Origin: Methyloceanibacter stevinii
Lineage (GTDB): Bacteria > Pseudomonadota > Alphaproteobacteria > Rhizobiales > Methyloligellaceae
Direction of reading: 5' to 3'
NCBI RefSeq assembly: GCF_001723355.1
Contig: NZ_LPWE01000003.1
Coordinates: 62,001 to 126,000 of the forward strand
DNA length: 64,000 nucleotides
Shown in pieces: positions 255 to 28,399 of the stretch. The position numbers were made by a program, and so were the translations under genes. Positions within the stretch are counted from its first letter, which is position 1. Every line of letters starts with the position of its first letter. The notes beneath the pieces are model-generated. The model was not told the DNA's origin and ran no database searches. It saw only the letters and a list, made by a program, of their open reading frames with translations.

Positions 255-1871
255 GTGGCCGTAGAAGACGTGGGACAAGACGCCGGCGAAAGCCCGCGAT
301 CGCTGCAGAGGCAGATTGGTTGGCGGGATGCATTCTGGGTCGCCAGTGGCGTCCCGGCCCTGGTTCTTTTCACCATGGGCGGCGTCGCCGCCACCTCAGG
401 CAAGGCCTCTTGGCTCGTCTGGGTCGCGGCCATCACCGTGGCCTTTATCCAAGCCTTCACCTACGCGGAAATCGCAGGTTTGTTCCCCGGCAAGTCCGGC
501 GGCGCGGCCATCCATAGTGCGATCGCCTGGTCGCGATACGGCAAGTTGTTCGCTCCGATCGCGGTGTGGTGCAATTGGTCGGCGTGGTCGGTGGTGCTGT
601 CGATCGGCGCCGGTCTTGGCGCCGGCTACGTTCTCAACCTGTTTTTCGCCCCGGACGCCGCCATCACCAGTTGGCAAATCGTGCTGGCCGATCTCGGATG
701 GCTGAAGGAGGGGCTCACCCTACGCATCAACGCGACGTTCATCGTCGCGGCCACGCTGCTGCTTGGCTGTTTCGCGATCCAGCGCGGCGGTATCCTTCGG
801 TCTGCGCGCGTGACGATGCTGCTTGGGATTGCCGCACTCGTGCCGCTCATTCTGATCGGCATCGTTCCGCTGTTCACCGGCGACATGCCGCGCGAGAATT
901 TCTTGCCGCTGGTCCCGCTGGCCTACGACGCGGCCGGTCAAGCGGTCGACGGCAGCTGGGACAAGGCGGGTTGGATCGCTGTCAGCGGCGCCTTGTTCGT
1001 CGCCTTGTGGTCCGCCAACGGATTCGAGACGGCCGCCTGCTATACGCGCGAATTCAAGGACCCGGCTCGGGATACGTTTCTGGCGCTGATGTCGTCGGGG
1101 CTGTTGTGCGTCGGGGTCTTCACGCTCGTGCCGCTGGCCTTTCAAGGCTCACTCGGGATCGAAGGCATGATCGCGCCGGGTATCCGCAGCGGCATGGATG
1201 TGGGGCATGTTCTGGCCGACATTCTCGGTGGCGGCTTGATCCTGGAAACCATCGTCGCGGTGCTGCTGATTCTCGCAATTATGCTTTGCATCATGACGGC
1301 TATGTCCGGCGCGGCGCGGACGTCCTATCAGGGGTCGGTCGAGGGATGGCTGCCGCGCTACCTCTCCCATGTGAACAAGGCAGGCGCCCCCACACACGCC
1401 ATGTGGACGGATCTGGTTCTCAACCTCGGCCTGCTCCTGATGTCCGACTACATCTTCGTCCTGGCCGCGACCAATGTCTCCTACATGGTCTTCACGTTTC
1501 TCTACGTGAACGCGGGTTGGATCCACCGGCTCGATCGCCCCCACTGGGTCCGGCCATATCGGGTCCCGCGGCTCCTTCTGATCGCCGGCGTCCTCATGTC
1601 GTTCGTCAACATGGCCGTGGCCGGGCTCGGTGCGAACATATGGGGGCAGGGCACCTTGCTGACCGGCTTCGTCATCGTGTTCCTGGCCGTGCCGTTCTTC
1701 ATCTACCGGCACTATGTGCAGGACAAAGGCGTCTATCCGGAGAACATGGCCGAGGACATGCATCTCGGCCCGGAGGCGGGAGTGGCGACGCGTGGGGGTC
1801 TGTTGCCTTATCTGGCCCTCGCCGGCGCGTTGGCCGTCACGCTAGCCTGCCATCTCTGGGTATCGGCTTGA
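255..1871 (+). CDS. APC-superfamily amino acid/amine permease (first of two paralogues)
   Basis: Integral membrane transporter of about 538 residues with roughly 12 hydrophobic helices. The N-terminal block IGWRDAFWVASGVPALVLF followed by GFIQAFTYAEIAGLFP-type sequence is the conserved TM1-TM2 region of the APC family. The start is a GTG at 255, with GGGGA about 14 bases upstream; a second in-frame GTG lies at 270. It is closely similar to the permease at 24945 over its whole length, including at the nucleotide level near the start. It converges on the GcvT-like gene and lies next to tmd, so a methylated amine or a related amino acid is a reasonable substrate, but nothing in the sequence identifies it. 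Confidence 0.85.
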   Translation: MAVEDVGQDAGESPRSLQRQIGWRDAFWVASGVPALVLFTMGGVAATSGKASWLVWVAAITVAFIQAFTYAEIAGLFPGKSGGAAIHSAIAWSRYGKLFAPIAVWCNWSAWSVVLSIGAGLGAGYVLNLFFAPDAAITSWQIVLADLGWLKEGLTLRINATFIVAATLLLGCFAIQRGGILRSARVTMLLGIAALVPLILIGIVPLFTGDMPRENFLPLVPLAYDAAGQAVDGSWDKAGWIAVSGALFVALWSANGFETAACYTREFKDPARDTFLALMSSGLLCVGVFTLVPLAFQGSLGIEGMIAPGIRSGMDVGHVLADILGGGLILETIVAVLLILAIMLCIMTAMSGAARTSYQGSVEGWLPRYLSHVNKAGAPTHAMWTDLVLNLGLLLMSDYIFVLAATNVSYMVFTFLYVNAGWIHRLDRPHWVRPYRVPRLLLIAGVLMSFVNMAVAGLGANIWGQGTLLTGFVIVFLAVPFFIYRHYVQDKGVYPENMAEDMHLGPEAGVATRGGLLPYLALAGALAVTLACHLWVSA

Positions 1872-1948: not shown

Positions 1949-1989
1949 CGGTACCACCCGCGGCCAGTAGCAGGCGGCACTCGGGGCTA

Positions 1990-3399: not shown

Positions 3400-5646
<2,247 letters not shown>

Positions 5647-5655
5647 AACGACTTT

Positions 5656-5686
5656 GTCCCGGGCGGTGCTCTCCCCCGCCCGGGAC
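5656..5686 (+). terminator. Strong GC hairpin after tmd
   Basis: GTCCCGGGCGG (5656-5666) pairs perfectly with CCGCCCGGGAC (5676-5686) over a 9-base loop, ten bases after the tmd stop and followed by GATCTTTC. It could terminate part of transcription or protect the 3' end of tmd mRNA, so that tmd is made in excess over the downstream electron-transfer genes. Confidence 0.6.
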
Positions 5687-5812
5687 GATCTTTCAACAGC
5701 GAACTTTGGGGCTTTGGCACAAGGGAATCCGAACGGTCCGACCTGAGCGACACGACTCGCGATCAGGGAGCGCGGGTTCCAAGAAACGCCCTCAACCCGT
5801 CAGGAGACGACG

Positions 5813-7986: not shown

Positions 7987-7993
7987 GACCGTC

Positions 7994-9337: not shown

Positions 9338-9376
9338 GGACAACATCGGAAGGAATATTGGTGTGAGGGTAAGACC

Positions 9377-10168
9377 ATGAAAATCCTAGTTCCCGTCAAG
9401 CAAATCGCCGTCGTGGACGAGGACTTCGAGCTTCGCGATGACGGCAAGGACGTCGATCCCGACTATCTGAACTTCGAAGCGAATGAGTGGGACGACTATT
9501 CCTACGAAGCCGCGCTGAACATTATGGAAGCGTCGGACGGCGTCGAAGTCGTTCCCGTGACCGTCGGCCCGGACGATGCCGAGGATGTTCTGCGCCGTTG
9601 CCTCGCCAAGGGTGGCGATAGAGGCATTCGGGTGTGGGACGACGCGTTGGAAGACGCGAACCCTGCCGTCGTTGCGCAAGTCCTCGCCGGCGTCGCAGCG
9701 CGCGAAAAGCCGGACATGATCCTGACCGGGACGCTGTCCTCCGATCGGTCTTACGCGCAAACTGGCGTCGCCCTTGCGGCCGCTCTCGGCTGGCCGCATG
9801 TGGCGGTCGTCACGGGGATCGAGTGGACGCCCGGCGACCCCAAGGCCACGCTTCTGCGTGAACTCGAGGGCGGACTTGTGGAGAAGCTCTCGGTGGAGTG
9901 TCCCGCTGTCCTGACAATCCAGCTCGGCATCAACACGCCGCGCTACGCGTCGCTGCGAGGCCTGAAACAGGCGAAAGAGAAGCCCGTCGAGGAACTGTCT
10001 CTGGACGATCTCGGTCTATCCGGCGACAGCCTCGCCGAACAGGCTTCGTTTCGGGTGCGGCGTATGTACAAGCCGGAGACGGGTCAGGCCGAACTCATTG
10101 AAGGTACGCCGGCCGAGCAGGCCGCGCGTCTTGCGGAAATCATCAAAGAACTCAAGGGAGCGGCATAA
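9377..10168 (+). CDS. etfB: Electron transfer flavoprotein, beta subunit
   Basis: A 263-residue ETF beta subunit, AMP- and partner-binding, that accepts electrons from trimethylamine dehydrogenase. It matches the methylotroph W3A1 beta subunit closely: 'MKILVPVKQ', 'NEWDDYSYEAAL', 'CLAKGGDR', 'RELEGGLVEKL' and 'PAVLTIQLGINTPRYASLRG'. The last stretch holds the recognition loop with its leucine anchor. GAGGG lies nine bases before the ATG. Its stop overlaps the etfA start (TAATG), which suggests translational coupling. The W3A1-like type, not the housekeeping fatty-acid type, supports pairing with Tmd. Confidence 0.95.
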   Translation: MKILVPVKQIAVVDEDFELRDDGKDVDPDYLNFEANEWDDYSYEAALNIMEASDGVEVVPVTVGPDDAEDVLRRCLAKGGDRGIRVWDDALEDANPAVVAQVLAGVAAREKPDMILTGTLSSDRSYAQTGVALAAALGWPHVAVVTGIEWTPGDPKATLLRELEGGLVEKLSVECPAVLTIQLGINTPRYASLRGLKQAKEKPVEELSLDDLGLSGDSLAEQASFRVRRMYKPETGQAELIEGTPAEQAARLAEIIKELKGAA

Positions 10169-11129
10169 TGGGAGAGATCCTTGTGATCGCGGAGCATCGC
10201 CAGGGGCAACTCAACCCGGCGACGTTGGAAATCATCGCCGCGGCCGTCGCATTGAAGGAGGAGTCCGGCCACAAGGTGACCGTCGCGGTCATCGCAGAAT
10301 CGCCGGATGACTTCGCAGGCCTCGTTGCCAAGGCGGGTGTCGACGAAGTCGTAAAAGTTCCTGTCCCGGTGGCATCGTTTCAGAACGATACCTACGAGGC
10401 TGCCGTCTTGGCGCTGGCCGACGCGCGGAAACCGGCCGTCATCATGTGCGCGCACACCGTGGATGCCTGGGGCTATGCACCGGCAGTCGCGGCACGGGGC
10501 CAGTTCGGTTGTGCGACGGACGTCTTCGAAATGCGTTTCGAGGCCGAGGGCCTTGTTGCCGTCCGTGCCGCCTATGCGGAAAAACTGCATATGGAAGTCG
10601 ACTTCCCGGGCAAGGAAACCGTACTGCTGACTGTGCGGACGAATGTCTTCAAACCGTTGGAAGACGACGGAAGCCCGGCCGTGACCTCCTTCGAGGCGCC
10701 ATCGGCGGAAGCGCACACGGAGCACCTGCCTACGTCGAACCGGAGCAAACCGGCGACGTCGATATCACGCAAGCCGAGTACATGCTGTCGATCGGGCGTG
10801 GTGTCGGCGAGGAAGACAATGTCGAGGAGTTCAAGGAACTCGCCGACGCGTTCGGGTTCACCTTGGGCTGCTCTCGACCGATCGCCGACAATGGCTGGTT
10901 GCCAAAGTCACGCCAAGTCGGTCAGTCCGGAAAGACCGTGGCCAAGTGCAAGATCTATTTGGCGCTGGGTATTTCCGGCTCCGTCCAGCACATGGCCGGC
11001 ATGAAACACGTGCCGAACATCATCGCGGTCAACAAGGACGCTGAAGCATCCATCTTCACGATCGCGAAGTACGGCATCGTTGGAGACATGTTCGAAATCG
11101 CGGAGGAACTGCGCGACCAGGACTCCTGA
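10168..11129 (+). CDS. etfA: Electron transfer flavoprotein, alpha subunit (frameshifted)
   Basis: FAD-binding partner of EtfB, about 320 residues after restoring one base near 10731. The N-terminal half reads in one frame to 'EDDGSPAVTSFEAPSAEAH'. The FAD domain continues in the next frame with 'AEYMLSIGRGVGEEDN', 'CSRPIADNGWLPKSRQVG', 'GKTVAKCKIYLALGISGSVQH' and 'NKDAEASIFTIAKYGIVGD', the usual ETF-alpha signature order. The break falls at the domain linker and the repaired length is normal for the family. ATG at 10168 overlaps the etfB stop. Confidence 0.93.
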
Positions 11130-11168
11130 CGAGCTGGGGCGACGCGGCTGTCTCGCTATGATCGCGCG

Positions 11169-12550
11169 CTAGGCCGCAGGCGCGTCGTCCAGATTTGCAA
11201 TCTCGATACGGCCAAGTCCGAGATTGCTCGCGCGCGCCGCGGCGCCGGAGGCGACCCCAAGGACATCTTCGGCGCTGTCCGTCGTAGCGGCCTCGAAGCC
11301 GGTTGCCAGCCCGATGCTCGTTGTGAGGAAGAACGCGTCATCGCCATCGCCGATGGGCGCGCGCAGAGCCTTCTGGACCTTTTCGGCGAGCTTGATGGCG
11401 TCGTCGACGGACTGCGTTCTCGTGCGCAAGATGGCAAACTCATTGCGCGTCCAACGGCACAACGAGTCCGACCGGTCCAGAACGCCGTCGATACGTCGGC
11501 CGATGTTGAGCAGGGCCCGCTCTCTGTCTTCGGGTGCGAGAGACTCATGCCAGTTCTGTAGCTGGTTCAAATGGACGACCAGAACCGCCGGGTGCTCGCC
11601 GGGTGTGGCGTTCAGCAATGCCATTTTGATGCGATCGAGAAATAGCGCCGGCGTGGAAGTTCGCTGGCAGAATCGTAGAGGCTGTCGCCCCTCAGTCTCA
11701 GCTGTTCGTGCCTCTCCCGCGTGATGTCGGTGATGAAGCCCTCGACGCCAAGAAGTTCGCCGCTGGTATAGAAGTTGCCGTGCCCCCGCTCGAGGACCCA
11801 CTTCACGTCGCCGCTCGCGGTCTGAATACGATACATCAACTCGAACGGACGGTTCTCGCGTACGGCCGCCTGAACGTGTTCCCAGACCTGTTCCCGCTCT
11901 TGAGGCAGGATGAGGTCGGCATAAGTAAGTTGCTTGTTGTTGACCAGGGCCTCCGCCGGGTAGCCGGTCAATGCCTCACAGCCCTTACTCATATATTCCA
12001 TCGTCCACTGACGATTGTTGCGGCAACGGTAGACAAGGCCGGGCAGGTTGTTGATCAGGATATCGAGAGTCCGGTGGCTGGCTTCCCTGATATTCTCCTG
12101 CTGCACGCGGTTGCCGACTTCCGACAGCGTGCCAACGAAGCCGCGGCAGTTGTTGTCGTTGGAAATCAGCCCCTGCGCACTGGCTTCCAGGTAGACGGTT
12201 TCGCCCGAGCGCGTCAGAAAGCGAAGAACGAGAACAGGATGCCCTTCCGGGTCGCGCTTGGACGCATCCAAAAAGCGTATCCAGCGGTCTTGATCTCGTG
12301 GGTGGAGGTAGTAGGCGTTCGGAAGCCCGCGCGTGTCCGCAGGGCTAAATCCTGTGAGGCGCTCCCAAGCTGCGTTCGCATAGCGAAGCCGGCCATCAGT
12401 GTCAGCCACGAACACGATTGTCTCGATGGTGTCGAGAAGCAGTTCGAAGAGGTGTGGTTGGGTGGGTACGAGACCAGAGGGGCCGGTCTCAAGCAAGGAA
12501 CCTGCGCGCGCTAGGATCTCCGACAGTTGTTTGATTGTGGCATTTCCCAT
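11169..12550 (-). CDS. Tandem PAS protein with degenerate GGDEF domain (frameshifted)
   Basis: About 460 residues after one base is restored near 11657. Two PAS/PAC units fill residues ~30-290 ('VFVADTDGRLRYANAAWERLTGFSP', 'MEYMSKGCEALTGYP', then 'VEGFITDITRER'). A GGDEF-type fold follows ('ALFLDRIKMALLNATP', 'FAILRTRTQSVDDAIKLAEK', 'TSIGLATG'). The active loop reads RWTRNEF where a working diguanylate cyclase has R-GGDEF, so cyclase activity is unlikely; it may act as a sensor or GTP-binding effector. No membrane segments are visible. It converges on etfA with 39 bases between them. I chose the ATG at 12550; its ribosome site is weak. Confidence 0.8.
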
Positions 12551-13587: not shown

Positions 13588-14781
13588 TCAGTCGACAATC
13601 GCATTGAAACCCGAGTCTTCCGTGCCGGGGCAATACACGTTGAGACGCGTGCCACCGCCAGTACGGTCCTCGATGCGGAACGTTCCGCCGAGCGCGCGGG
13701 CGCGCTCCTGCATGATGATGAGGCCGTGATGGTGCTCGCCGCCTTGCAGGGCGAGTTGCATGCCGACCCCGTTATCCTCGACCCGCATTAGAATGGCCCC
13801 ATCGTCGCGGACGCGGACGCTGACCCAGCAAAGACTCGCGTGGGAGTGGCGTACGACGTTGCAAAGCGCTTCGCGAAGAATAAGCAGCAGCTGCATCTCG
13901 TCGGAGACCGTCAGCCGTCCCGCCTTCAACCGGTTGTCCAAGTCGAAGGCGATGGAGCTACGGCGCTCGAACTCTTCGATGGAGTCTTCCAGCGCTTGCG
14001 AAAACGTCCTGCCGCGCATCGTCAGGCGGAAGGTCGTTATCAACTCGCGCAGTTGCAGGTCCGCGGTGCTGAGCGTGCTCCGCACTTCCTGAAGCGTCTT
14101 TTCGATATCGGGAACACTGTCGGTGCGCTTGCGCAGCGTGTCCTGCAGCAGGCTTACCTTCACTTTCAGATACGATATGGACTGCGCGAGCGAGTCGTGT
14201 AGCTCACGCGCTATCGCCGCGCGTTCCTCGCTCTGCGCGCTACGCAGTTTCATGCGAGCGCATCGTGCACTCTCGATGACGCCTGAGAGGTACTCGGTGA
14301 ACGATTCCAGCGTTGTCCTGGACACAGGGATTTCGCTGCTCTCGACGCGTAAGAGCAGAAGGCCGATTCCCGAAATGCCTTGGGAGAAACTCTGCACGAC
14401 GACGGAGGAGTGCGGGTCTGTCACATCGCCGACGATCTTGGGGCCCTCGGGCGTGTCCAAGGAGGAAAACAGACGGCTCTGCCGGATAATGTGGAGCCAG
14501 CGGGACCGATCGTCATCTCCCACGACCGCGAGCTGAACCAACTGCCGGCCGCTTTCGGTGCTGACGAAGATCGCACCGGACCGGGCATCGGTCATATCCA
14601 TGATGTGAGAAAGAACGAGCTCGAAGGGCTCTACGGAGTCCGGGTCGGAGAGGAGGCGCGTCAGAATCTTGTTGAGCAGGTTTATTGTCGTGCTCGGGCT
14701 TTGCTCTCGCTCGCTGCCGACCAGGCAGGGGGCGAACCATGCGGAACGCGGGGCCAGCTTTGTCCCTCGCGCTTCCGTCAT
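13588..14781 (-). CDS. Soluble NarX-like sensor histidine kinase (GAF-HisKA_3)
   Basis: About 397 residues. The N-terminal 170 residues form a GAF-like sensory domain ('DARSGAIFVSTESGRQLVQLAV'). The phospho-acceptor motif is 'ERAAIARELHDSLAQSISYLK' (HisKA_3 of the NarX/DesK group), then an ATPase domain with the N box 'LREALCNVVRHSHA' and G box 'VEDNGVGM'. No membrane helix is seen, so it senses a cytoplasmic signal. There is no obvious cysteine cluster for oxygen or nitrate sensing. It is the first gene of a two-gene operon with the response regulator and diverges from the XRE-cupin regulator. Confidence 0.9.
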   Translation of the reverse strand: MTEARGTKLAPRSAWFAPCLVGSEREQSPSTTINLLNKILTRLLSDPDSVEPFELVLSHIMDMTDARSGAIFVSTESGRQLVQLAVVGDDDRSRWLHIIRQSRLFSSLDTPEGPKIVGDVTDPHSSVVVQSFSQGISGIGLLLLRVESSEIPVSRTTLESFTEYLSGVIESARCARMKLRSAQSEERAAIARELHDSLAQSISYLKVKVSLLQDTLRKRTDSVPDIEKTLQEVRSTLSTADLQLRELITTFRLTMRGRTFSQALEDSIEEFERRSSIAFDLDNRLKAGRLTVSDEMQLLLILREALCNVVRHSHASLCWVSVRVRDDGAILMRVEDNGVGMQLALQGGEHHHGLIIMQERARALGGTFRIEDRTGGGTRLNVYCPGTEDSGFNAIVD

Positions 14782-14925
14782 GCCGCATTCCTCTCGGCAT
14801 TTTTCGTGTCTGGTGTCACCTTGCCCATCGCGACATCTCAGCGCGGAGATCCCTAGGAAAAAAGCCGCCCTCTCTTCGGCGCGGCGGACCTCCTCATTTG
14901 ACCTTGATCAAGCACAGCAGCATTG

Positions 14926-14940
14926 TTCAATATCATTGAA
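14926..14940. promoter_or_regulatory. Palindrome TTCAAT-ATC-ATTGAA
   Basis: A perfect 6+6 inverted repeat with a 3-base centre, in an AT-rich patch between the divergent histidine kinase and XRE-cupin genes. A second 10-base palindrome, CTTGATCAAG, lies at 14903-14912. Either could be an operator for the two-component system or for the XRE regulator. Confidence 0.4.
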
Positions 14941-15035
14941 TAATATTCATGGCCAGGGGTAATAGTAATCGGCTATGCTGGTATTCGCATGGCGTGTTGC
15001 GCTGCAGCACAGCGCCGCCCAACGGACACTAAGCA

Positions 15036-15683
15036 ATGGCCCTCGATAAGACTGACGCCCCTGCTGACGGCCGATACTGAAGAAACCTACGATGAAGCTT
15101 GGGCCGGGAAGTGGCTCTATCGATTGGTGTTCAGGTCCGGGCTGCGCGCAACCGGCACGGCATGACCGTGGCCAGAGTGGCCCAACTGACTGGATTATCT
15201 TCAGGAATGCTGTCGAAGGTCGAGAACGGCAACGCGTTCCCCTCGCTCACGACACTTCACGCCTTGTCCCGTGTTTTCCGGGTACCGATGACCTTCTTCT
15301 TCGAGACGCACCAGGAGACGCAGGGCTGCTGCTACGTCAAGAAGGATGGTGGGCTCTTTATCGAAAGCCGGGGGTCGAAGGTTGGCCACCAATATCAGCT
15401 GCTGGGACACGGCGTCGGCAAGGAGCTGTCGGTGTCGCCGTACATGATCGAACTGAACGACACGTCGGAGGTGTTTCCCCTGTTTCAACATCCGGGCGTG
15501 GAGTTCATCCACATGCTCGGCGGGGAAATGGTCTACGAGCATGGAGGAAAGCCCCATCGGCTGTCTCCAGGCGACTCTCTTTTCTTTGAGGGGACGACGG
15601 CGCACGGGCCGGTCGAGCTCATAGAGCTGCCGATCCGATTTCTCTCGATCATCGTCGAGCCCGGCCCGAAGGACGGGTCCTAG
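15036..15683 (+). CDS. XRE-family regulator with C-terminal cupin (frameshifted N-terminus)
   Basis: HTH regulator of about 215 residues. The HTH is clear in 'QVRAARNRHGMTVARVAQLTG' with 'LSSGMLSKVENGNAFPSLTTL', and residues ~120-200 form a ligand-binding cupin ('VEFIHMLGGEMVYEHGG', 'GDSLFFEGTTAHGP'). The frame containing the HTH has a stop just before a TTG at 15099. Upstream sequence in other frames reads MALDKTDAPAD and then TEETYDEA, so removing one G near 15069 and adding one base near 15098 gives a continuous protein from the ATG at 15036. If that repair is wrong, the gene starts at TTG 15099. Such regulators often sense small metabolites, and its place between the two amine operons suggests it may control them. 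Confidence 0.8.
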
Positions 15684-18274: not shown

Positions 18275-19620
18275 ATGGAACAGTCAGCCAGCTCGAAATA
18301 CGTGATTATCGGGGCCGGAATCCACGGCCTGAGTACAGCGTATCACCTTGCCCTCCAGCTCAAGGCGACGGGCAAGGGGTCCGGTGAGGATATTCTCGTC
18401 ATTGACAAGGCGTCAATCGGCGGCGGTGCATCGGGAATTGCCTGCGGCGTGGTGCGCAACAATTACTTCCAGCCGGCCATGCGCGAGTTGATGGCGCACT
18501 CGGTCGGGGTGTGGGAGAGCGATCCCAAGGCATACAGCTACCACCCTGTCGGGTACATGCAGATCAGCGCCGAATGCATGCATTCGGATGTGGCGACGAT
18601 CTACGAACAGCAGCAGGCCATCGATTACGAGTCCACCTTCATCGAGGGGACCGACGACTGCCGCAAATACATGCTGGGCATCTTCGACGACTGGCAGGCC
18701 CAAGGCATTACCTCGGTCCTGCACGAAAAACGCGGCGCTACGCCAACAATACGGCCTCGCTCTATGGTCTGGCCGGTAAGGCCGAGGCAGAGGGCGTGCG
18801 GATCGCGACCGGTGTCGAGGTTCTCGGCTTCGAATACGGCAACAACTCCGGCGCCGTCACCGGCGTCGTGACGAACCGCGGCACGATCGCTTGCGATGCG
18901 GTGGTCGTTGGCGCAGGTCCTTGGGTGCTGAAATTCTGGGACATGCTTGAGCTGCCGAAAGCCATCTCCATCAAAGGGCCCGACGGCGAGATGCACGACG
19001 ACGTGCCGATGTGGAAATTCTGGTGCCTGGAGGAGGGGACGCTCGGCGTCGATCCCGACATGCACAAGACCAACAACGGCAGCATGCCGCCGGTCATTCA
19101 CGTGGATACCGACGCGCCGCTCTATTCGGACGTCGACGGGTCGTTGATCACCGACAAGCTGTGGGGCCTCTATTACAAGCCCGACTTCAACTTCGGTGGC
19201 ATTCAGGGCGGCGCCTCTCCGTACAAGGTGGACGAAGACCCCGACAAGGTCGCCCTCGATCCTTACGGGCCGGACTCGCCGGACTTCATCGTCGGCGACG
19301 ACTTCATCCACATGTGGTGTTCGATGCTGGCCCATTGCCAGAAGCGTTTCGAAGGCAAGATCTCCGCCTACAAACACAAAGAGAAGTCCGGCGGCCTTGG
19401 TTGCTTCACGCCGGACAACTTCCCGGTGTTCGATACCTTCCGGGAGAATGTCTACGTCATTGCCGACTCCAACCATGGTTACAAAATGATCGGGGTTGGT
19501 AAGCTCGTCGCGCAAGAGCTGGTTGGGGAGAAGAGCAAGCTACTGGAGCCGTTCCGCTTCGGGCGCTTTGCGAAGGGTGAGCTGCATCCGGTCTCCCACA
19601 GCCCATTTCCGTGGAGTTGA
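18275..19620 (+). CDS. DAO-family FAD-dependent amine/amino acid oxidoreductase (frameshifted)
   Basis: About 448 residues after one G is restored near 18736. The Rossmann start is 'YVIIGAGIHGLSTAYHL'. The substrate domain ends with 'GGLGCFTPDNFPVFD' and the C-terminal FAD motif 'ADSNHGYKMIGVGKL', as in sarcosine oxidase-like enzymes. The covalent-flavin cysteine position of monomeric sarcosine oxidase does not appear to be matched. It is first in an operon with a GS-family ligase and GlxBCD. Members of this family oxidise secondary amines, so N-methylglutamate is an attractive substrate, replacing the four-subunit MgdABCD enzyme, which is absent here. That substrate is inference. The stop is 16 bases before the next ATG. 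Confidence 0.85.
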
Positions 19621-19636
19621 TGTTAGGGAGACGTCA

Positions 19637-21109
19637 ATGGATATCGAAACCTATGTAGATGACCCGCAACGCCAGGAGCTGGTCAAAGAAGTTCGGAAGA
19701 AGATCGACGAACTTGGAATTGAGTATCTGTACCTGCAGTTCGTGTCGATCACGGGCCGCATCATGGGCAAGGGCATCCCGGCCGATCACTGGGAGAGCGT
19801 TGCGAAGAAGGGCTTCCAGCTCGTTTACGGCGCGACGGTCAACCTGTTCCTCAACAGGCATGGCGAATATTTCGGCTACGGCCCCGAGGCTGCCGAGCTC
19901 GTCGGCATCCCCGACCCGGAAACCTTCATGCAGCTGCCATGGGACAAGCGCGTCGCGCGCATGTACTGCACGCTGTTCCGGAACCGCGAGGAAAAAGAGA
20001 ATCCGGGCGGCTTCCTGACCGCGGATTGCCGCGGCAACCTTCGCCGTCTCCATCAGGACTTCCAGAAGAAGCACGACGGCCTGCAGCTCCGCGTCGGCAC
20101 CGAGCCGGAGATGATGTGGCTGAAGAAGGACGAGGACGGCAAGCCGAACGGCGGCTACTCCGAGCCCTACTGCTACCACATCGATCAGTTCGAGAGCCTT
20201 CGCCCCGTCTACATGAAGGTGATGGAGTATTCCCGCAAGATGGGTCTCGACATGATCCAGGGCGACCACGAAGACGCGCCCGGCCAGCTCGAGCTGAACT
20301 GGATGTACGACGATGTGCTGCGTAATGCGGACCGTCTGACCACCTACCGTCAGATCTGTGCGCAGGTCGCGCGCGAGTTCAACATCATCGCCTGCTTCAT
20401 GACCAAGCCCTTCATGGGTGTGTCGGCGAGTGGCTGTCACCACAACATGTCGCTGTGGCGCGGCGGTGAGGACGTGTTCCGTCGGACCGGCAACGACCCC
20501 GACGACCTGCCGGGCATGCGCGAAAACTACATGTACGTCTCGGGCGGCGACAACACGTTCATGCCCGACGGCGACGACCCGCAATTGCCTGGCAAGGCGG
20601 GGCTCGCGGCCATCGGCGGCATCGTGCATCACCTGCGCGCCCTGACCGCGGTCGGCTCCTCGACGGTGAACTCTTATCGCCGTCTCTGGGACACCGGCTT
20701 CTGGGCGCCGATCTTTGCCGACTGGGGCTTCCAGAACCGCACCACGGGCTTGCGCGTTTCGGCGCCTGGCCGGTTCGAGTACCGCTCCGTGGACTCGATG
20801 GTGAACCCTTATCTGATGGGATCCACGATCCTGGCGGCCGCCGACGACGGCATCGACAACAATCTCGATCCGGGCGAGCCCGAGGAGCGCAATATCTACG
20901 AAGCCATCGCGGCCGGAAAGGAAGTGAAGCGGCTGCCGATGAATCTCGGCGAGGCGCTCCAGGCTTTGAAGGACGACGAAGTCGTGCAGCGTGGCATGCC
21001 CGGCGAAATGTACCGTCTCTACAGCGAATACAAACGGGACGAGTGGGAGCGTTTCAACCACACCGTCACCGAATGGGATGTGGAGACCTACCTCAACTGC
21101 CTGCCATAG
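19637..21109 (+). CDS. Glutamine synthetase-family ligase, candidate gamma-glutamylmethylamide synthetase
   Basis: A 490-residue ATP-dependent glutamate-amine ligase. Catalytic blocks are 'VGTEPEMMWL', 'QGDHEDAPGQLELNW', 'GVSASGCHHNMSLW', 'NSYRRLWD' and 'FEYRSVDSMVNPYL', in the order seen in glutamine synthetases. The N-terminal domain ('IEYLYLQFVSITGRIMGKG') looks distant from the GlnA and GlnT/GmaS proteins I know, and the protein is somewhat longer. The gene order with a class II amidotransferase, a GXGXG protein and an FMN glutamate-synthase domain is that of the gamma-glutamylmethylamide/N-methylglutamate pathway. Substrate (methylamine, ammonia or another amine) cannot be settled from sequence. 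ATG 19637 has GGGAG seven bases upstream. Confidence 0.85.
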   Translation: MDIETYVDDPQRQELVKEVRKKIDELGIEYLYLQFVSITGRIMGKGIPADHWESVAKKGFQLVYGATVNLFLNRHGEYFGYGPEAAELVGIPDPETFMQLPWDKRVARMYCTLFRNREEKENPGGFLTADCRGNLRRLHQDFQKKHDGLQLRVGTEPEMMWLKKDEDGKPNGGYSEPYCYHIDQFESLRPVYMKVMEYSRKMGLDMIQGDHEDAPGQLELNWMYDDVLRNADRLTTYRQICAQVAREFNIIACFMTKPFMGVSASGCHHNMSLWRGGEDVFRRTGNDPDDLPGMRENYMYVSGGDNTFMPDGDDPQLPGKAGLAAIGGIVHHLRALTAVGSSTVNSYRRLWDTGFWAPIFADWGFQNRTTGLRVSAPGRFEYRSVDSMVNPYLMGSTILAAADDGIDNNLDPGEPEERNIYEAIAAGKEVKRLPMNLGEALQALKDDEVVQRGMPGEMYRLYSEYKRDEWERFNHTVTEWDVETYLNCLP

Positions 21110-21180
21110 CAGCTGAACAACGAGTTGAACGCGTCGCGCACTTTGCGCGGCGCGCTTGGTGAAACGGAGGAACAAAAACA

Positions 21181-22116
21181 ATGTGCGGGATTGCTGGTGT
21201 CATTCATCGCGGTAAAGCGGTGGGCGTCGGTCAAGAGATGACCGCGATGCTCCAAAGTCTGAAGCATCGTGGACCCGACTCGACTGGGTTTGCCGTTTAC
21301 GGCGTGACGAAGCCTGACGAGTACGTCATGCGCTTGAAGCTCGCCGAAGCAGAGGACTTCGAAACGGATTACAACATCCGTGACAAGATCCGCGACCGTC
21401 AGGCCTTGGTCGACAATCGGCTGGCCGAACTCGGTGCGCAGACGATCGAAGTCGAGCAGCCGACGCCTTATGCATTTCGTTATCGCCTGCGCTTTTCGGG
21501 CGACACGAAGCAACTGGCCTCGGACCTGGAGCATATCGAGGGCGGTGAAGTCCTGTCTTTCGGTAACTCCCTTGAGCTGATCAAGGATCTGGGCGACGCC
21601 ACGGTCGTGTCCCAGCAGTACGGCCTTGCCGATTTCCAGGGTACGCACGGCATCGGGCACACGCGCATGGCCACGGAATCGGATGTCGATATCCGTTCGG
21701 CGCATCCGTACTGGGCTTATCCCTACAACGACATCAGTGTCGTCCATAACGGGCAGATCACGAACTATTGGATCATGCGCCGCGAAATGGAGCGACTTGG
21801 TCATCGGTTCATGTCGAACTGCGACTCCGAACTGCTGGCGGTTTATACGGCCAACAATCTGGAGCAGGGCGCGACGCTCGAAGACTCCCTGAGGGCGTCG
21901 ATCAAGGAGATCGACGGCGTCTTCACCTACATCGTCGCCACGGACAAAGAACTGGGCATGGCCAAGGACACGATGGCCGCGAAGCCCATGGTTCTCTACG
22001 AAAGCGACGACATCGTTGCGCTCGCCTCGGAGGAAGTGGCCATCCGCGCCATCGTTCCCCGGGAAATCGATACGTCTGATCCCTATGATGAGGAGGTGCG
22101 GGTATGGCAACGCTAA
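21181..22116 (+). CDS. glxB: Class II glutamine amidotransferase, GlxB/MgsA-type subunit
   Basis: A 311-residue Ntn-hydrolase that should release the amine from a gamma-glutamyl amide. The N-terminal nucleophile is Cys2 in 'MCGIAGVIHRGK', with 'LKHRGPDSTGFAV', 'GIGHTRMATESDVD', 'HNGQITNYW' and 'NCDSELLA' downstream. It is the stand-alone counterpart of the amidotransferase domain of glutamate synthase. It has a strong GGAGGAA eight bases upstream and overlaps the next gene by 13 bases. In N-methylglutamate synthase the equivalent subunit is MgsA. Confidence 0.9.
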   Translation: MCGIAGVIHRGKAVGVGQEMTAMLQSLKHRGPDSTGFAVYGVTKPDEYVMRLKLAEAEDFETDYNIRDKIRDRQALVDNRLAELGAQTIEVEQPTPYAFRYRLRFSGDTKQLASDLEHIEGGEVLSFGNSLELIKDLGDATVVSQQYGLADFQGTHGIGHTRMATESDVDIRSAHPYWAYPYNDISVVHNGQITNYWIMRREMERLGHRFMSNCDSELLAVYTANNLEQGATLEDSLRASIKEIDGVFTYIVATDKELGMAKDTMAAKPMVLYESDDIVALASEEVAIRAIVPREIDTSDPYDEEVRVWQR

Positions 22117-22976
22117 CGCAAGCTGCGCCGTCTGAGCAGGAACGCAAGTCCCATGAAATGGGCATGCATACGGAACAGCTCACCGGTCGTTCGCAGCAGG
22201 TTTTCTTCGATATTGATCTCAACGAGGCCCATCACGGGTTCAGTCTGCCCGACGCGTTCGACGTGGACTTCAACAAGCGCGGTGAGATCGATGCGTCCAA
22301 TATGGATGCGAAGCATGTCAACGCCCGCATCCGTGAGATGATGGGCGAGGGCTACGGGACGATCGTTCTGAAGAATCCCGCTGCCAAGCATTCCTTGGCG
22401 GTCGGCATTCTCAATCGGCTCAATCTCATCATCGAAGGCTCGCTCGGCTATTTTGGCTGTGGCTTGGTCGACGGACCGAATATCCGCATCAACGGCCGCG
22501 TCGGCTGGTCCTGCGGCGAAAACATGATGAGCGGAACCATTCTCATCGAGAAGAACGCGGGTTCGCAGTTCGGTGCCGCGCTCCGCGGTGGCGACCTCGT
22601 CTGCAAAGGCGATGTCGGCTCGCGCACGGGCATCGACATGAAGGGCGGCAACATCATCGTCGGCGGCGACACAGGTTCGTTCACCGGCTTCATGATGCAG
22701 CGCGGCCGCATGGTGATCTGCGGCAATGCCGGCAAGAACCTTGGCGACTCCATGTACGACGGAACCATCTTCCTGGGTGGAGAACCGAGAAGCCTTGGCG
22801 TTGACGCGGTCTGGAGCGACATGACCGATCTCGATCGGGAGTGGCTCGAGAAAAAACTCACGAAGTACGACGTGATGCCGAAAGGCGGCATCGGATCGTT
22901 CCGCAAAATCGTCGCCGGTAAGCAGCTCTGGAACTACGACAATCTAGAGCCGACCGAGAAGAAATTGGTTCTGTAA
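22104..22976 (+). CDS. glxC: GXGXG-domain protein, GlxC/MgsB-type subunit
   Basis: A 290-residue protein equal to the C-terminal right-handed beta-helix domain of glutamate synthase. The repeats of glycine turns are clear from about residue 110 to 235 ('GYFGCGLVDGPNIRINGRVG', 'GSQFGAALRGGDLVCKGDVG', 'GNIIVGGDTGSFTG', 'MVICGNAGKNLGDSMYDG'). It has no catalytic residues and acts structurally, linking the amidotransferase and FMN subunits. Translation is coupled to glxB by the 13-base overlap, with GGAGG inside glxB as ribosome site. Confidence 0.9.
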   Translation: MATLTQAAPSEQERKSHEMGMHTEQLTGRSQQVFFDIDLNEAHHGFSLPDAFDVDFNKRGEIDASNMDAKHVNARIREMMGEGYGTIVLKNPAAKHSLAVGILNRLNLIIEGSLGYFGCGLVDGPNIRINGRVGWSCGENMMSGTILIEKNAGSQFGAALRGGDLVCKGDVGSRTGIDMKGGNIIVGGDTGSFTGFMMQRGRMVICGNAGKNLGDSMYDGTIFLGGEPRSLGVDAVWSDMTDLDREWLEKKLTKYDVMPKGGIGSFRKIVAGKQLWNYDNLEPTEKKLVL

Positions 22977-22991
22977 GGGGAGCTTGCTGAG

Positions 22992-24371
22992 ATGGCTAAG
23001 GATAAGAAGCAGAAGGCGAACGGCGCGAAAGAGCCCGCCGAACAAAGCCGGTTTCTGCTGGGTAAGAGTCAGATCTTCACACCGGAGGTCATGAACGATA
23101 TCCACGTGAAGGCAGAGTTGGGCCGCTACAGAATGCGCGGCTTCTCGCTCTTCAAGAAGATCCCGCACTGGGATGACCTCACCTTCCTGCCGGGTACGCT
23201 GACGCGTTTCGTCATCGAAGGGTATCGCGAGAAGTGCGATACCAAGACGGTGATCGGGCCGCAGGCGAAACGCCCGCTGCAGTTGGATATTCCGGTCTAC
23301 GTGACCGGCATGAGCTTTGGTGCGCTGTCCTACGAGGCGAAAATCGCGCTGGCGCGTGGTGCCACGATGGCGGGTACGGCAACGTGCTCGGGCGAAGGCG
23401 GCATGATCCCGGACGAGCGCCGCTATTCGTCGAAATGGCTCTACCAGTGCATCCAGTCGCGCTACGGCTTCAATCCGCATCATCTGCGGCTGGCCGACTG
23501 TTGCGAGTTCTTCATCGGACAAGGCTGTAAGGTCGGCCTTGGCGGCCACTTGATGGGCCAGAAGGTGACCGACCAGGTCGCCGAGATGCGCTCCTTGCCC
23601 GCCGGTATCGATCAGCGGTCGCCCGCGCGGCATCCCGATTGGCTGGGTCCGGACGATCTGGCGCTGAAGATCGAGGAAATTCGCGAAGCGACCAATTGGG
23701 AAATTCCCATTCAGCTGAAGCTCGGCGCCGCGCGTGTCTACGACGACGTGCGCATGGCCGTGAAGTGCGGTCCGGATTCCATCTATATCGACGGCATGGA
23801 AGGTTCGACGGGTGCGGGTCCGCACATCGCGACGGAAGATACGGGCGTGCCAGGTATCGCCGCGATCCGTCAGGCACGCCGGGCCATCGATGAGCTCGGC
23901 ATGCGGGGCAAGGTCAGCCTTGTCTACGCGGGCGGCATCCGCAACGGCGGCGACGTCGCCAAGGCGCTTGCACTTGGTGCGGACGCGATCGCCATCGGCC
24001 ACTCGGTCATGATGGCGCTCAACTGCAACAAGGAAATTCCGGAGTCGGATTTCGAGGCTGAGATGGGCGTGCCCGCCGGCCGCTGTTACCACTGCCACAC
24101 GGGCCGTTGCCCGGTGGGCGTGGCGACGCAAGATCCGGAGCTGCGCAAGCGGCTCGATCCGGAAGAGGCGGCGGAGCGGGTCTACAACTTCCTGCACACG
24201 CTGACCTTGGAAGCGCAGCTTCTGGCCCGTGCGTGCGGCAAGACCGACATCCACAGCCTGGAGCCGGAAGACCTTGCGGCGCTGACAATGGAAGCCTCCG
24301 CCATGGCCCAGGTGCCGCTGGCGGGAACCGACATGACCGTCGGTGTCGAGAACTATCACAAGCTGGGGTGA
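22992..24371 (+). CDS. glxD: FMN-binding glutamate synthase-like subunit, GlxD/MgsC-type
   Basis: A 459-residue FMN TIM-barrel protein. Family motifs are 'VYVTGMSFGALSYEAKIAL', 'CSGEGGMIPDER', 'YIDGMEGSTGAGPH', 'YAGGIRNGGDVAKALALGAD' and 'CYHCHTGRCPVGVATQDPEL'; the last matches the cysteine region of the glutamate synthase Fe-S site. It would transfer the released amine to 2-oxoglutarate and reduce the imine. GGGGAG lies about nine bases before the ATG. It is the third of the three co-translated subunits that together resemble N-methylglutamate synthase. Confidence 0.9.
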   Translation: MAKDKKQKANGAKEPAEQSRFLLGKSQIFTPEVMNDIHVKAELGRYRMRGFSLFKKIPHWDDLTFLPGTLTRFVIEGYREKCDTKTVIGPQAKRPLQLDIPVYVTGMSFGALSYEAKIALARGATMAGTATCSGEGGMIPDERRYSSKWLYQCIQSRYGFNPHHLRLADCCEFFIGQGCKVGLGGHLMGQKVTDQVAEMRSLPAGIDQRSPARHPDWLGPDDLALKIEEIREATNWEIPIQLKLGAARVYDDVRMAVKCGPDSIYIDGMEGSTGAGPHIATEDTGVPGIAAIRQARRAIDELGMRGKVSLVYAGGIRNGGDVAKALALGADAIAIGHSVMMALNCNKEIPESDFEAEMGVPAGRCYHCHTGRCPVGVATQDPELRKRLDPEEAAERVYNFLHTLTLEAQLLARACGKTDIHSLEPEDLAALTMEASAMAQVPLAGTDMTVGVENYHKLG

Positions 24372-24379
24372 GGAAGACG

Positions 24380-24778
24380 ATGTCCAAGAAAGATCAGAAC
24401 GACGTCGATAAGTACTTGAAGGACTCCGCCGGTCTCGACACCGAGCGCGAGAAGGTCATCGGTCAGCACATCGGCTACCGCTACGACGTGAACCTGTTGC
24501 CCGACGACGACAAGATCACGCCGTTCCTCAAAGAGTACATGGAGTTCATGGGTTGGGACGACCTCAACTGGTTGGAGGACGTCCACATGGGCTACGAGGA
24601 AGGTCAGCCCGCGATCTTCGATCGCAACATCAACGGCTGGGTCCGTATTCCGAAGTCAATGGCGCTTCCGAATAACCAGCAGGACCGGGACATGATCGCC
24701 CGCGAACTGCTGATCCGTTTCCAGACTTCGCCGAACCATCCACTTCACGACCTGAACAAGGCTTACCGCAAGTTCTAA
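24380..24778 (+). CDS. Uncharacterised 132-aa protein of the GS-Glx operon
   Basis: I do not recognise this protein. It is soluble, acidic and rich in Asp, Trp and Tyr in the middle ('FMGWDDLNWLEDVHMGYEEG'), with a C-terminal helix rich in Arg and Lys. There is no signal peptide, membrane segment or cysteine motif. The ATG is eight bases after the glxD stop with AGGAAG upstream, so it belongs to the operon. Its position suggests an accessory subunit or regulator of the synthase, or an enzyme acting on the same substrate. A strong hairpin overlaps its stop codon. Confidence 0.8.
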   Translation: MSKKDQNDVDKYLKDSAGLDTEREKVIGQHIGYRYDVNLLPDDDKITPFLKEYMEFMGWDDLNWLEDVHMGYEEGQPAIFDRNINGWVRIPKSMALPNNQQDRDMIARELLIRFQTSPNHPLHDLNKAYRKF

Positions 24779-24944: not shown

Positions 24945-26552
24945 ATGTCAGATGCAACCACGGCTTCCGCTGCCGGAAGTCCGGGCACGGAGTCTACGCT
25001 TCATCGTGTGATTGGTTGGAAGGATGCATTCTGGGTCGCTAGTGGCGTCCCGGCGCTTGTGCTCTTTTCAATCGGCGGCATCGCCGCCACCGTCGGAACA
25101 CCGTCCGTTCTTGTTTGGACGCTTTCGGTTCTGTTCGGATTCATTCAGGCTTTCACCTATGCGGAAATTGCAGGCCTCTTCCCGACTAAGTCGGGTGGAG
25201 CATCGGTCTACGGTGCTGCCGCTTGGGTTCGATACAGCCGGTTGATCGCGCCGCTTTCGGTCTGGTGCAACTGGTTGGCTTGGACTCCGGTTCTGGCGAT
25301 CGGTTGCGGCATCGCGGCCGGTTACATTCTGACGGCACTGTTCCCCGCGGACTCGGCGATCCGAGCCTGGGAAATTCAGTTCCTCGACCTGTCCTTCTTC
25401 AAGGAGGGGCTCAGCCTTCGCGTCGATGCGACGTTCTTCATCGGTGCGATTCTTATGTTGATCTCGTTTGCCATTCAGCATCGGGGAATTCTGTCGACCG
25501 CCAAGGTGCAGACCATCGTGGGCGCGTCGGTCCTGATCCCGCTTCTGATCATCGGCATCGTGCCGCTGATCACCGGCGATGTGGCGATGGAAGCGTTCAA
25601 GCCGTTCGCGCCTGGCACGGACCCGGCAACGGCGGCTTGGGACAAGGCAGGCTGGACATTGTTCTTCGGCGGACTCTTCATCGCCGCCTGGTCCGCCTAT
25701 GCGTTCGAAACGGCCATCTGCTACACGAGCGAGTTTCGCGATCCGGCGACGGACACCTACAAGGCGATCCTCTATTCGGGGCTTCTGTGTATTGCCGTGT
25801 ACGTGCTGGTGCCGCTGTCGTTCCAGGGTGCGCTCGGTCTTGCCGGGGTTATCGCGCCGGGCATCGTCGATGGCTCGGGCGTTGCCCAGGCCATGGCCGG
25901 CATGGTCGGTGGCGGTGCCTTCATCACCAATCTGCTCGTGGTGATGCTGTTGCTGGCTTTGATGCTCGCCATTACGACGGCCATGGCCGGCAGCTCGCGG
26001 ACGCTCTACCAAGGCTCCGTAGACGGATGGCTTCCGCGCTACCTCAGCCGCGTTAACAAGCACGGTGCGCCGACGAGCGGCATGGGAACGGATCTCGCTT
26101 TCAATCTGATCCTGCTCCTCATGTCGGATTATCTGTTCGTGCTGGCGGTCTCGAATGTCTGCTACATCGTATTCAACTTCTTGAACCTGAACGCAGGCTG
26201 GATCCACCGGATCGACAATGCGCATGTGAAGCGCCCGTGGAAGGCGCCCACCTTCCTCATGGGCATTGGCGTGGTGCTGGCCTTCGTCAACGCGTTCCTC
26301 TTGGGCGCGGGCGCGGAGGTTTGGGGATCGGGGACCTTGGTCGCAGGTGCGATCGCCATCGGCCTCGTCATCCCGGTCTTTATTTTCCGGCACTACATCC
26401 AAGACAAGGGACAGTTTCCGCCTCAGATGTTGTCGGATTTGTCAGTAGACGGAAAGACGATCTCGCAAGCGAAGGCAGGCGCGTTGCCCTATATCGCCTT
26501 GGTGGGCGGCGTCCTGTCGGCCGGTATCGGTTACGTGATTTTCTGGACGTAG
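24945..26552 (+). CDS. APC-superfamily permease (second paralogue)
   Basis: A 535-residue transporter with about 12 membrane helices and the same TM1-TM2 signature as the permease at 255 ('IGWKDAFWVASGVPALVLF', 'FAFTYAEIAGLFP'-type). GGGAGGAA lies just upstream of the ATG. It ends 22 bases before a good terminator. It is downstream of the GS-Glx operon and upstream of an Amt-family transporter. Two paralogous permeases at the two ends of the amine island suggest uptake of related substrates, one per operon. The substrate is not known. Confidence 0.88.
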   Translation: MSDATTASAAGSPGTESTLHRVIGWKDAFWVASGVPALVLFSIGGIAATVGTPSVLVWTLSVLFGFIQAFTYAEIAGLFPTKSGGASVYGAAAWVRYSRLIAPLSVWCNWLAWTPVLAIGCGIAAGYILTALFPADSAIRAWEIQFLDLSFFKEGLSLRVDATFFIGAILMLISFAIQHRGILSTAKVQTIVGASVLIPLLIIGIVPLITGDVAMEAFKPFAPGTDPATAAWDKAGWTLFFGGLFIAAWSAYAFETAICYTSEFRDPATDTYKAILYSGLLCIAVYVLVPLSFQGALGLAGVIAPGIVDGSGVAQAMAGMVGGGAFITNLLVVMLLLALMLAITTAMAGSSRTLYQGSVDGWLPRYLSRVNKHGAPTSGMGTDLAFNLILLLMSDYLFVLAVSNVCYIVFNFLNLNAGWIHRIDNAHVKRPWKAPTFLMGIGVVLAFVNAFLLGAGAEVWGSGTLVAGAIAIGLVIPVFIFRHYIQDKGQFPPQMLSDLSVDGKTISQAKAGALPYIALVGGVLSAGIGYVIFWT

Positions 26553-27014: not shown

Positions 27015-28366
27015 ATGGGCAATAACTTAGACGCGCTGACAACCGTCTTTACCGAGTTCTATTACTGGGTAACGGTTGTCTTCATGTTTCTTATTCACGT
27101 TGGGTTTTGCATGTACGAGGTCGGCGTCAGCCGGCGGCGGAATCATATGCATACCCTCATGAAGAACACGATGCTGATCCCGTTGGTGACCATCACGTTC
27201 TTCTTCTTCGGCTGGTGGATTTATTGGGCGTTCCCCAACGGGCCGTTCATCACCGGCGGACTCGATACGGAGACGGCGGCCGCGAATTTGCCCACCTCTC
27301 CGACGATGGCGACTGACCTTTCCGATCGAATTACCGGCGTGTTTTGGGCAGCTTTCCTCCTGTTCTCTTGGACGGCAGCCTCTATCGTTTCCGGTTCGGT
27401 GATTGAGCGTATCCGTTCCGGTGCGTTCTGGATCATCGCGGTCATGATCGGTTCCGTAACCTGGATCATCGATGCGGCCTGGGGCTGGAGCGCCAATGGC
27501 TGGATGGTCAAGCTTCTCGGCTATCACGATGCGTATGCGTCCGGCGTCATCCACGCCATTGCCGGCGGTACCGCGCTCGGCGTTCTCGTCGTACTCGGGC
27601 CGAGGCTCGGCCGCTTCCGGGCGGACGGCACGGCGCGGGACTTCGTACCGCATAATCCCTGGCTGGTGACGGTGGGTCTGTTCCTGATCTACACGGGCTT
27701 CTGGGGCTTCTATGCCGCTTGTAACGTTCCGATCATTTCGCCGGAAGGTATCGGCGGCCTGATCACCGGTGAGACGTGGACGGCGACGACCATCTATCTC
27801 ACACCGACCACGCTTGGCGCGATCACCTTCAACTTCCTGATGTCTCTGTCGGGCGGTCTGATGGTGGCTTACATCATCTCGAAAGGCGATCCGTTCTGGA
27901 CGTATTCGGGTGGCCTCGCGGGCATCATCACGGCCTCTGCGGGCAACGATTTGTACCATCCGATCCAGGCGATGTTCATCGCGGGCATCGGTACGTTCAT
28001 TGCCTACAAGATGCACTATTGGGTGGAGCGGACATTCAAGATCGATGACGCGGTCGGTGCGGTGGCCGTTCACGGCTACGCCGGCTTTGTCGGTCTTGTG
28101 ATCGCAGGGTTCATGCTCTGGGGTTACCCGTCCTCGCCCTATGAAGGCTACGCGGCGATCAATCCGCTCGGTAACACGATCGGTGCGGTCATCATGTTCT
28201 TCGTTCTCGGCTTTGTTCCCGCCTGGATCGTTGCCAAGATCCTGAACGGGATGGGGCTCCTCCGGGTGCCGCGCGAATCGAACTCATGGGTCTGGACTTC
28301 AAGACCCTGGCCGACGAAGAGCAGGCACGGGAAGACGTGCGCGAAGCCGAAAAGGCGCTCGTGTAA
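27015..28366 (+). CDS. amt: Amt-family ammonium/methylammonium transporter (C-terminus frameshifted)
   Basis: About 450 residues and 11 membrane helices after one A is restored near 28276. The site Asp in 'GYHDAYASGVIHAIAG' lies eight residues before the first pore His, and the twin His is in 'DDAVGAVAVHGYAG', as in E. coli AmtB. The Phe-gate region 'GFWGFYAACN' is also kept. After repair the tail reads REIELMGLDFKTLADEEQ and ends at 28366. There is no glnK nearby. It carries ammonium or methylammonium; its place after the amine operon suggests uptake or recapture of methylamine/ammonia. Confidence 0.92.
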
Positions 28367-28399
28367 CGGTGACGGCAAGATATAGAAAGGAAAACCACT

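Follow-up and report, generated by a model that had tools for sequence, protein, structure and literature searches.

A stretch of Methyloceanibacter stevinii DNA (hereafter the window; 64,000 nucleotides, positions 62,001 to 126,000 of contig NZ_LPWE01000003.1) carries at 18275-24778 an operon that encodes a flavoenzyme of the DAO family, a glutamine-synthetase (GS)-like ligase, three glutamate-synthase-like subunits and a 132-residue protein, H132. Judging from its genes, the operon seems to represent a route of dimethylamine (DMA) breakdown in marine bacteria that has not been described before, in which DMA would first be attached to glutamate; many relatives carry the known oxygen-using enzyme instead. 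Our reading, to which we assign a probability of about 0.6, is that the operon provides a glutamate-linked DMA route that substitutes for DmmDABC, the oxygen-dependent DMA monooxygenase, running via gamma-glutamyldimethylamide and N,N-dimethylglutamate, and that it is most likely a variant of the N-methylglutamate (NMG)-type pathway with DMA as its substrate. Gene content, gene order, family relations, co-occurrence and mutual exclusion, on which this reading is based, were observed; from them we infer the substrate, the intermediates, the roles of H132 and of the DAO-family enzyme, and all of the chemistry. The operon comprises the following genes.

18275..19620 (+): DAO-family flavin adenine dinucleotide (FAD) enzyme, PF01266 in the N- and C-terminal parts; proposed N,N-dimethylglutamate (or N-alkylglutamate) oxidase/dehydrogenase
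19637..21109 (+): GS-like ligase, TIGR03105 below cut-off; proposed gamma-glutamyldimethylamide synthetase
21181..22116 (+): class II glutamine amidotransferase (GAT) subunit, MgsA/GlxB type, PF13522/PF13537
22104..22976 (+): GXGXG-domain subunit, MgsB/GlxC type, PF01493 at 59 bits
22992..24371 (+): flavin mononucleotide (FMN) glutamate-synthase-domain subunit, MgsC/GlxD type, PF01645 at 304 bits
24380..24778 (+): H132, a 132-residue protein specific to this operon version, no family match; proposed additional synthase subunit or chaperone

The intergenic distances, for a ligase that starts at 19637, are 16 bp (DAO to ligase), 71 bp (ligase to GAT), 15 bp (GXGXG to FMN) and 8 bp (FMN to H132), and the GAT and GXGXG genes overlap. 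Gene content, order and coordinates agree between the open reading frame (ORF) and domain evidence and a preliminary description of this locus, whose assignment to glutamate-linked amine oxidation and choice of the operon as a candidate are likewise supported. That description had proposed a search for the six-gene order in other genomes. In the best 80 of at least 563 ligase relatives from a scan of named genomes (77-94% ligase identity; Roseobacters, SAR116, Hyphomicrobiales and Granulosicoccaceae among them), the order and strand of ligase, GAT, GXGXG, FMN and H132 genes are kept in all 62 loci that have all five genes, so the operon is more than a chance arrangement; several of the other 18 loci are cut by contig ends. 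The order thus holds for five core genes, but the sixth, the DAO gene, was seen in only 32 of those 62 loci.

Mutual exclusion with DmmA

Were the operon a substitute for DmmDABC, no genome would be expected to have both. DmmA (NF041259) was found in none of 51 searched genomes with the operon or its ligase (six of the window's genus and 45 others). The distribution was followed further in 296 genomes, with completeness of at least 95, from the family of Roseovarius atlanticus (G073), which we take to be Rhodobacteraceae; the 51 carriers include six of them. As a positive control for DmmA, NF041259 matches in 39 of the 296 genomes, and the trimethylamine N-oxide (TMAO) demethylase Tdm passes its cut-off in 68. 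Proteins similar to Tdm that score 987-1061 bits (the best match in 11 genomes) were left out of this count. All but one of the 39 DmmA genomes have Tdm, the exception being G175, which has no Tdm over the cut-off. H132 is present in 24 genomes, every one of which has Tdm and none of which has DmmA.

The ligase, counted at 71% identity or more, occurs in 26 family genomes, again with no DmmA in any of them. These are 22 of the 24 H132 genomes together with four of the six Tdm genomes that had neither H132 nor DmmA; the ligases of these four are 71-81% identical, one belonging to an operon cut by a contig end and three standing with a cytochrome P450. The two H132 genomes outside the ligase list are G188 and G251, one with its locus on a contig end and the other with a partial ligase match. 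Ligases at 53-55% identity in G307, G332, G143 and G349 were not counted; on the ligase tree they group apart, together with two plasmid ligases, and G143 has DmmA. Altogether, 38 of the 68 Tdm genomes have DmmA, 28 have the ligase or H132, none has both and two have neither, such that 66 of 68 hold exactly one system. Under independence, the chance of zero overlap would be 4e-13 for H132 and 4e-17 with the ligase added, both of which overstate the evidence, as independent switches are few. Since the operon and DmmA exclude each other, the distribution points to DMA rather than methylamine as the substrate.

Paralogous enzymes beside the canonical methylamine set

The host genome (3.2 Mb in 14 contigs, 99.6% complete) also holds canonical methylamine genes. 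On contig C10 (G000:C10:1-9602) we found soxB, part of soxA, a regulator, mgsA-, mgsB- and mgsC-like genes, and a ligase of the type III glutamate-ammonia ligase (GSIII)/GmaS type that scores 646.9 bits against a cut-off of 469.6; soxB/mgdA scores 676 bits (cut-off 529). The soxA gene is in pieces at the start of C10 and the end of C1 (G000:C1:123908-125014), so the two contigs probably adjoin. Because the sox set adjoins mgs-gmaS, its context favours an NMG dehydrogenase rather than a sarcosine oxidase, between which sequence alone cannot tell. The preliminary description had reported the four-subunit NMG dehydrogenase (MgdABCD) as absent, which is true of the operon, where the DAO gene stands instead, but not of the genome, whose sox/mgd genes lie on other contigs beside the gmaS-mgsABC homologues. 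It had named a full mgdABCD set elsewhere, along with DAO activity on an unrelated amino acid, as what would speak against it; sox/mgd genes elsewhere were indeed found. Replacement of mgdABCD by the DAO enzyme is rejected, as both occur in the same genome, and the compact methylamine pathway of that description is not supported. A second methylamine route would be redundant there, and the window operon is a second, paralogous set beside the canonical one.

The operon's enzymes are distinct from their canonical counterparts. The ligase reaches 317.9 bits with TIGR03105 (GmaS/GSIII), under the cut-off; it is 28.8% identical to the host's own GmaS and 94% identical to the ligase of a Hyphomicrobiaceae relative (UBA7697, L066). 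A pocket comparison was not used, as its flap Trp is common to the window ligase, GmaS and the other two GSIII proteins and gives no discrimination. Like MgsABC, the operon has three separate subunits with a class II amidotransferase, a GXGXG domain and an FMN glutamate-synthase domain. The GAT and GXGXG subunits share 34% and 36% identity with the host's own MgsA and MgsB homologues, respectively, and Cys2 of the GAT subunit is kept in 99% of 76 homologues. The FMN subunit is 49% identical (387 bits) to the host's own MgsC homologue, as compared with 30% (121 bits) for its long glutamate synthase. By these comparisons, the synthase subunits are paralogues of MgsABC.

H132 has no match in Pfam, NCBIfam or PHROG. 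Against PDB sequences it gave one chance-level match (E 0.028), and against PDB folds no match at E of 0.001 or less, the predicted model having a pLDDT of only 70.5. The protein is 67-78% identical across 41 aligned homologues, occurs in 14 of 61 genomes (the host and 60 relatives), and was not found within 20 kb around canonical mgs genes.

The DAO gene has the family and place first described but is not one open frame: as compared with four relatives (L047-L050), the window copy lacks one G at about 18737 (18735-18740), which puts its N- and C-terminal parts in different frames. L047 has the gene in one piece, with 100% and 99.7% identity to the respective parts, so the frameshift is either a very recent mutation or a sequencing or assembly error. 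The enzyme is only distantly like sarcosine oxidase beta. With TIGR01373 (heterotetrameric sarcosine oxidase beta/MgdA, cut-off 529) the N- and C-terminal parts score 43.5 and 30.3 bits and an intact relative in L118 66.7 bits, and the L047 copy matches PDB 1y56 at E 1e-11. A DAO gene is present in 36 of the 80 loci, directly upstream in 32 and elsewhere in four; among the 70 loci with at least 3 kb of upstream sequence it is found in 30.

Canonical genes also lie near the variant operon in L052, L053 (the same contig as L124), L111, L134 and L136, and in part in L143. In L060 their neighbours are the permease and ammonium transporter of the variant, along with a tail of H132 that is 20 residues long. 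Separately, L044 carries two more GSIII-type ligases over the cut-off (10978-12363 and 14159-15598) after its canonical gmaS.

Proposed route and its alternatives

Upstream of the operon, the window contains a trimethylamine (TMA) module at 255-11004, which also holds an Fe-S-type electron-transfer protein; the gene of its trimethylamine dehydrogenase (TMADH) lies about 13 kb upstream of the operon. The remaining features of this module and of the operon's flanks are as follows.

255..1871 (+): second TMAO-permease-like transporter, NF053774 at 810 bits
1990..3099 (-): GcvT-like folate protein adjoining the TMADH gene, PF01571 at 210 bits; 198 bits to the GcvT half of TMAO demethylase
3403..5646 (+): TMADH, PDB 1djn at 1257 bits over the whole chain
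7916-9337: LRV-repeat protein, in the TMA module
9377..11004 (+): electron-transfer flavoprotein pair, probable TMADH acceptor; ORF1 is EtfB, ORF2 is EtfA by position and content, with no NCBIfam match at 1e-10
15099..15683 (+): helix-turn-helix-cupin regulator, PuuR-like, 49% identical to the regulator ahead of the canonical mgs genes
24945..26552 (+): APC-family permease, NF053774 (TMAO permease equivalog) at 884 bits, cut-off 690
27015..28385 (+): ammonium/methylammonium transporter family protein, PF00909
28732..29355 (-): p196 family, conserved neighbour, predicted FMN/heme split-barrel fold

Both window permeases thus pass the NF053774 cut-off, in agreement with the amine-like permease of the preliminary description. 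TMADH converts TMA to DMA and formaldehyde, and the window enzyme keeps the positions Cys30, Tyr60, Trp264 and Trp355. Dimethylamine dehydrogenase (DMADH) has Gln at the position of Tyr60. For DMADH, no second TMADH-family protein was found in the host genome at E of 1e-80 or less, the sole match being TMADH itself with Tyr60, and DmmA was not found there either. This leaves the operon as the sole candidate for DMA use found in the host genome, in searches that did not cover Tdm or Tmm. Two relatives of the genus (G008 and G009) have the operon and no TMADH at E of 1e-80 or less.

In the proposed route, modelled on GmaS and NMG synthase, the DMA released in the host by TMADH would first be joined to glutamate by the GS-like ligase at the expense of ATP, giving gamma-glutamyldimethylamide. 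The GAT, GXGXG and FMN subunits, together with H132, would then free DMA inside the complex and swap it for the alpha-amino group of glutamate, yielding N,N-dimethylglutamate and ammonia, by the kind of exchange that NMG synthase carries out with methylamine. One methyl group would next be removed by the DAO enzyme (in loci that lack it, by MgdABCD or a different flavoenzyme) to leave NMG, from which the known MgdABCD would take the second to regenerate glutamate. In the P450 version, the amide could instead be demethylated to gamma-glutamylmethylamide and passed to canonical MgsABC. The wider proposal, of a monooxygenase-free DMA pathway with a dedicated ligase clade, a new 132-residue synthase component and a P450 version that demethylates the glutamyl amide, serving as the DMA step in many marine Alphaproteobacteria that lack dmmDABC (Roseobacters, SAR116, Hyphomicrobiales) and in some Gammaproteobacteria, is one to which we give even odds.

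Several known systems can be compared with this arrangement. The gmaS-mgsABC-mgdABCD pathway (Methyloversatilis; R. pomeroyi gmaS SPO1573) likewise combines a GS-like ligase, a class II amidotransferase, GXGXG and FMN subunits and a flavin demethylase. The operon is distinct from it in its 29%-identical, sub-cut-off ligase, its extra 132-residue protein and its one-subunit DAO enzyme, in coexisting with the canonical set, and in not being found together with DmmA. DmmDABC (R. pomeroyi SPO1579-1582) stands at an equivalent position among the TMA/TMAO genes, with an AraC regulator and mgdABCD nearby, and has the same proposed job, but no homologous subunit was found, and the operon's proposed chemistry would draw on ATP and glutamate rather than on NADPH and O2. 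The TMADH/DMADH family handles the same methylated amines. The rhizobial glxBCD and glnT genes have domain families in common with the operon; the plasmid GlnT-type ligases among those listed are about 30-32% identical to the window ligase.

In the literature, dmmDABC of Ruegeria pomeroyi stands beside the AraC regulator TmaR (SPO1584) and mgdABCD (SPO1585-1588), according to PMC13390433 and PMC5520151; the latter also states that in marine metagenomes dmmDABC is found far less often than tmm, tdm or gmaS. According to PMC7948447, Rhodovulum GmaS takes DMA weakly (Km 16 mM, kcat 2.6 per s), as compared with a Km of 27 uM for methylamine. For SAR11, PMC8918994 describes growth with TMAO of strain HTCC1062, which lacks dmmDABC and "may recruit an isoenzyme", and PMC3160333 describes glxBCD/glnT and duplicated sox genes. 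A literature search that covered few subscription papers found no dimethylglutamate or glutamyl-dimethylamide route, and the operon is not named in the available portions of PMC5520151, PMC8918994, PMC3160333, PMC13390433, PMC7574528, PMC7948447, PMC12661815, PMC9964916, PMC11264602 and PMC9699525. DMA is an intermediate of marine TMA/TMAO breakdown, and the published marine scheme puts DmmDABC at the DMA step. If correct, the proposed route would explain how many dmm-less Tdm genomes go on from DMA and would change metagenome counts of DMA users. Free methylamine would be skipped as an intermediate, the NMG enzyme plan would gain a new substrate, and the question of the missing DMA isoenzyme would become directly testable.

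A number of observations weigh against this reading. The split between Dmm and ligase genomes tracks the Tdm tree, with seven label changes as compared with 24.9 in shuffles; so few independent events mean that the exclusion statistics overstate the evidence, and whole cassettes may have been swapped, which would explain part of the exclusion. The informative cases, which count in favour of the reading, are the switches inside the ligase clade of that tree, namely the Dmm genomes G338, G114 and G381 with G372, in which no H132 or ligase match was found. The fetched loci of G114, G338 and G381 show dmm genes, and those of their close kin G371, G377 and G106 show the ligase operon and no DmmA. 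The two Tdm genomes with neither system, G322 and G324, fall inside the Dmm clade. In addition, canonical mgs genes lie beside dmm in six of seven fetched Dmm loci (L227-L229 and L299-L301, not L226) and in none of eight fetched ligase loci of the same family (L219-L223 and L302-L304), such that, as far as the fetched stretches go, gmaS-mgs might be what the operon replaces, either alone or together with dmm. PF11927, the superfamily of DmmC, matches in 20 of the 51 carriers. It was rejected as a Dmm marker, since the four of these 20 matches that were compared are 26-31% identical to the presumed DmmC (so taken by its place after DmmA), as compared with 75-81% among the Dmm loci. The DAO gene is absent from the fetched stretch of 30 of the 62 complete loci, where another protein must carry out the third step.

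The alternative that survives best, although we regard it as unlikely, is the view of the preliminary description, a divergent but isofunctional methylamine pathway that replaces gmaS-mgsABC in Roseobacters, in which the ligase would be a GmaS, the GAT, GXGXG and FMN subunits an NMG synthase and the DAO enzyme a one-subunit NMG dehydrogenase. Consistent with this, among the proteins compared, MgsABC homologues are the closest to the three synthase subunits, and the contrast between Dmm and ligase loci in their canonical mgs genes would be accounted for. However, the host genome has the canonical set as well, canonical genes lie near the variant or its flank in the loci named above, and soxB stands beside DAO-bearing operons in the fetched stretch of 12 of the 62 complete loci. 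Moreover, the ligase lies under the GSIII/GmaS cut-off, and 28 of the 68 Tdm genomes would be left without a known DMA step.

It is more doubtful still that the cassette replaces Dmm with p196, the DAO enzyme or the P450 as the DMA demethylase, and that the ligase handles the resulting methylamine. The p196 cluster (cluster 6; 196-207 residues; no Pfam match) is found in 51 of the 80 loci, and its model (pLDDT 90) resembles the FMN/heme-binding split-barrel fold of pyridoxamine-phosphate-oxidase-like proteins; the P450 adjoins the ligase in six of the 80 loci and in three family-sample genomes. The split-barrel match is weak, however (best E 0.003), the P450 loci that were fetched showed no p196, making it an unlikely common DMA step, and methylamine in the host is already served by the canonical genes. 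Least probable, and by a long way improbable, is another secondary or bulkier amine as substrate, whose link with the TMA cluster would be an accident of how cassettes were inherited: P450, ABC transporter, aldehyde dehydrogenase or class I amidotransferase genes do adjoin the more distant ligases (53-55% and about 40% identical) on plasmids, and the wider ligase family may serve other amines, but all 24 H132 family genomes have Tdm and none DmmA, and the TMADH and TMAO-type permease genes lie in the same region as the operon.

The P450 version, gene neighbourhoods and distant ligases

The ligase is accompanied by a P450 and no synthase genes in L090, L092, L096, L097, L101, L120, L220, L222 and L223, the P450 being assigned by Pfam in the first three and by similarity in the other six. 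L089 has the synthase genes plus a P450 of the same cluster. In the three Tdm genomes with ligase and P450, the stretch also has tmm and tdm, or sox/mgd genes. On the ligase tree, eight of the nine P450-type ligases nest among the synthase-type ligases, and the ninth (G174) sits at the clade edge on a long branch. This nesting fits a single ligase product that would feed two alternative downstream modules.

Genes of TMA/TMAO breakdown (tmm, tdm or tmoXWV) were found in the fetched flanks of 35 of the 80 loci and soxB in 19, with either in 42; the ammonium transporter cluster is found in the flanks of 18. In L074, L079, L084, L109, L114, L129, L137 and L139, sox/mgd genes are followed by an AraC regulator, a class I amidotransferase, the DAO gene and the ligase operon. 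L082 has the same arrangement plus one more GS gene, and L099, L102, L106 and L112 have it without the DAO gene.

Among more distant relatives, plasmids of Ruegeria (L061, 6428-15468) and Paracoccus (L062, 6900-13687) carry a paralogous ligase (54%) and a second GS-like protein with a P450 or aldehyde dehydrogenase and a class I amidotransferase as neighbours, as well as an ABC transporter in Ruegeria; these sets probably represent a pathway for another amine. In Gordonia plasmid pGKT2 (L065, 9001-11370), a 40%-identical relative of the ligase lies between P450 and FAD-oxidoreductase genes.

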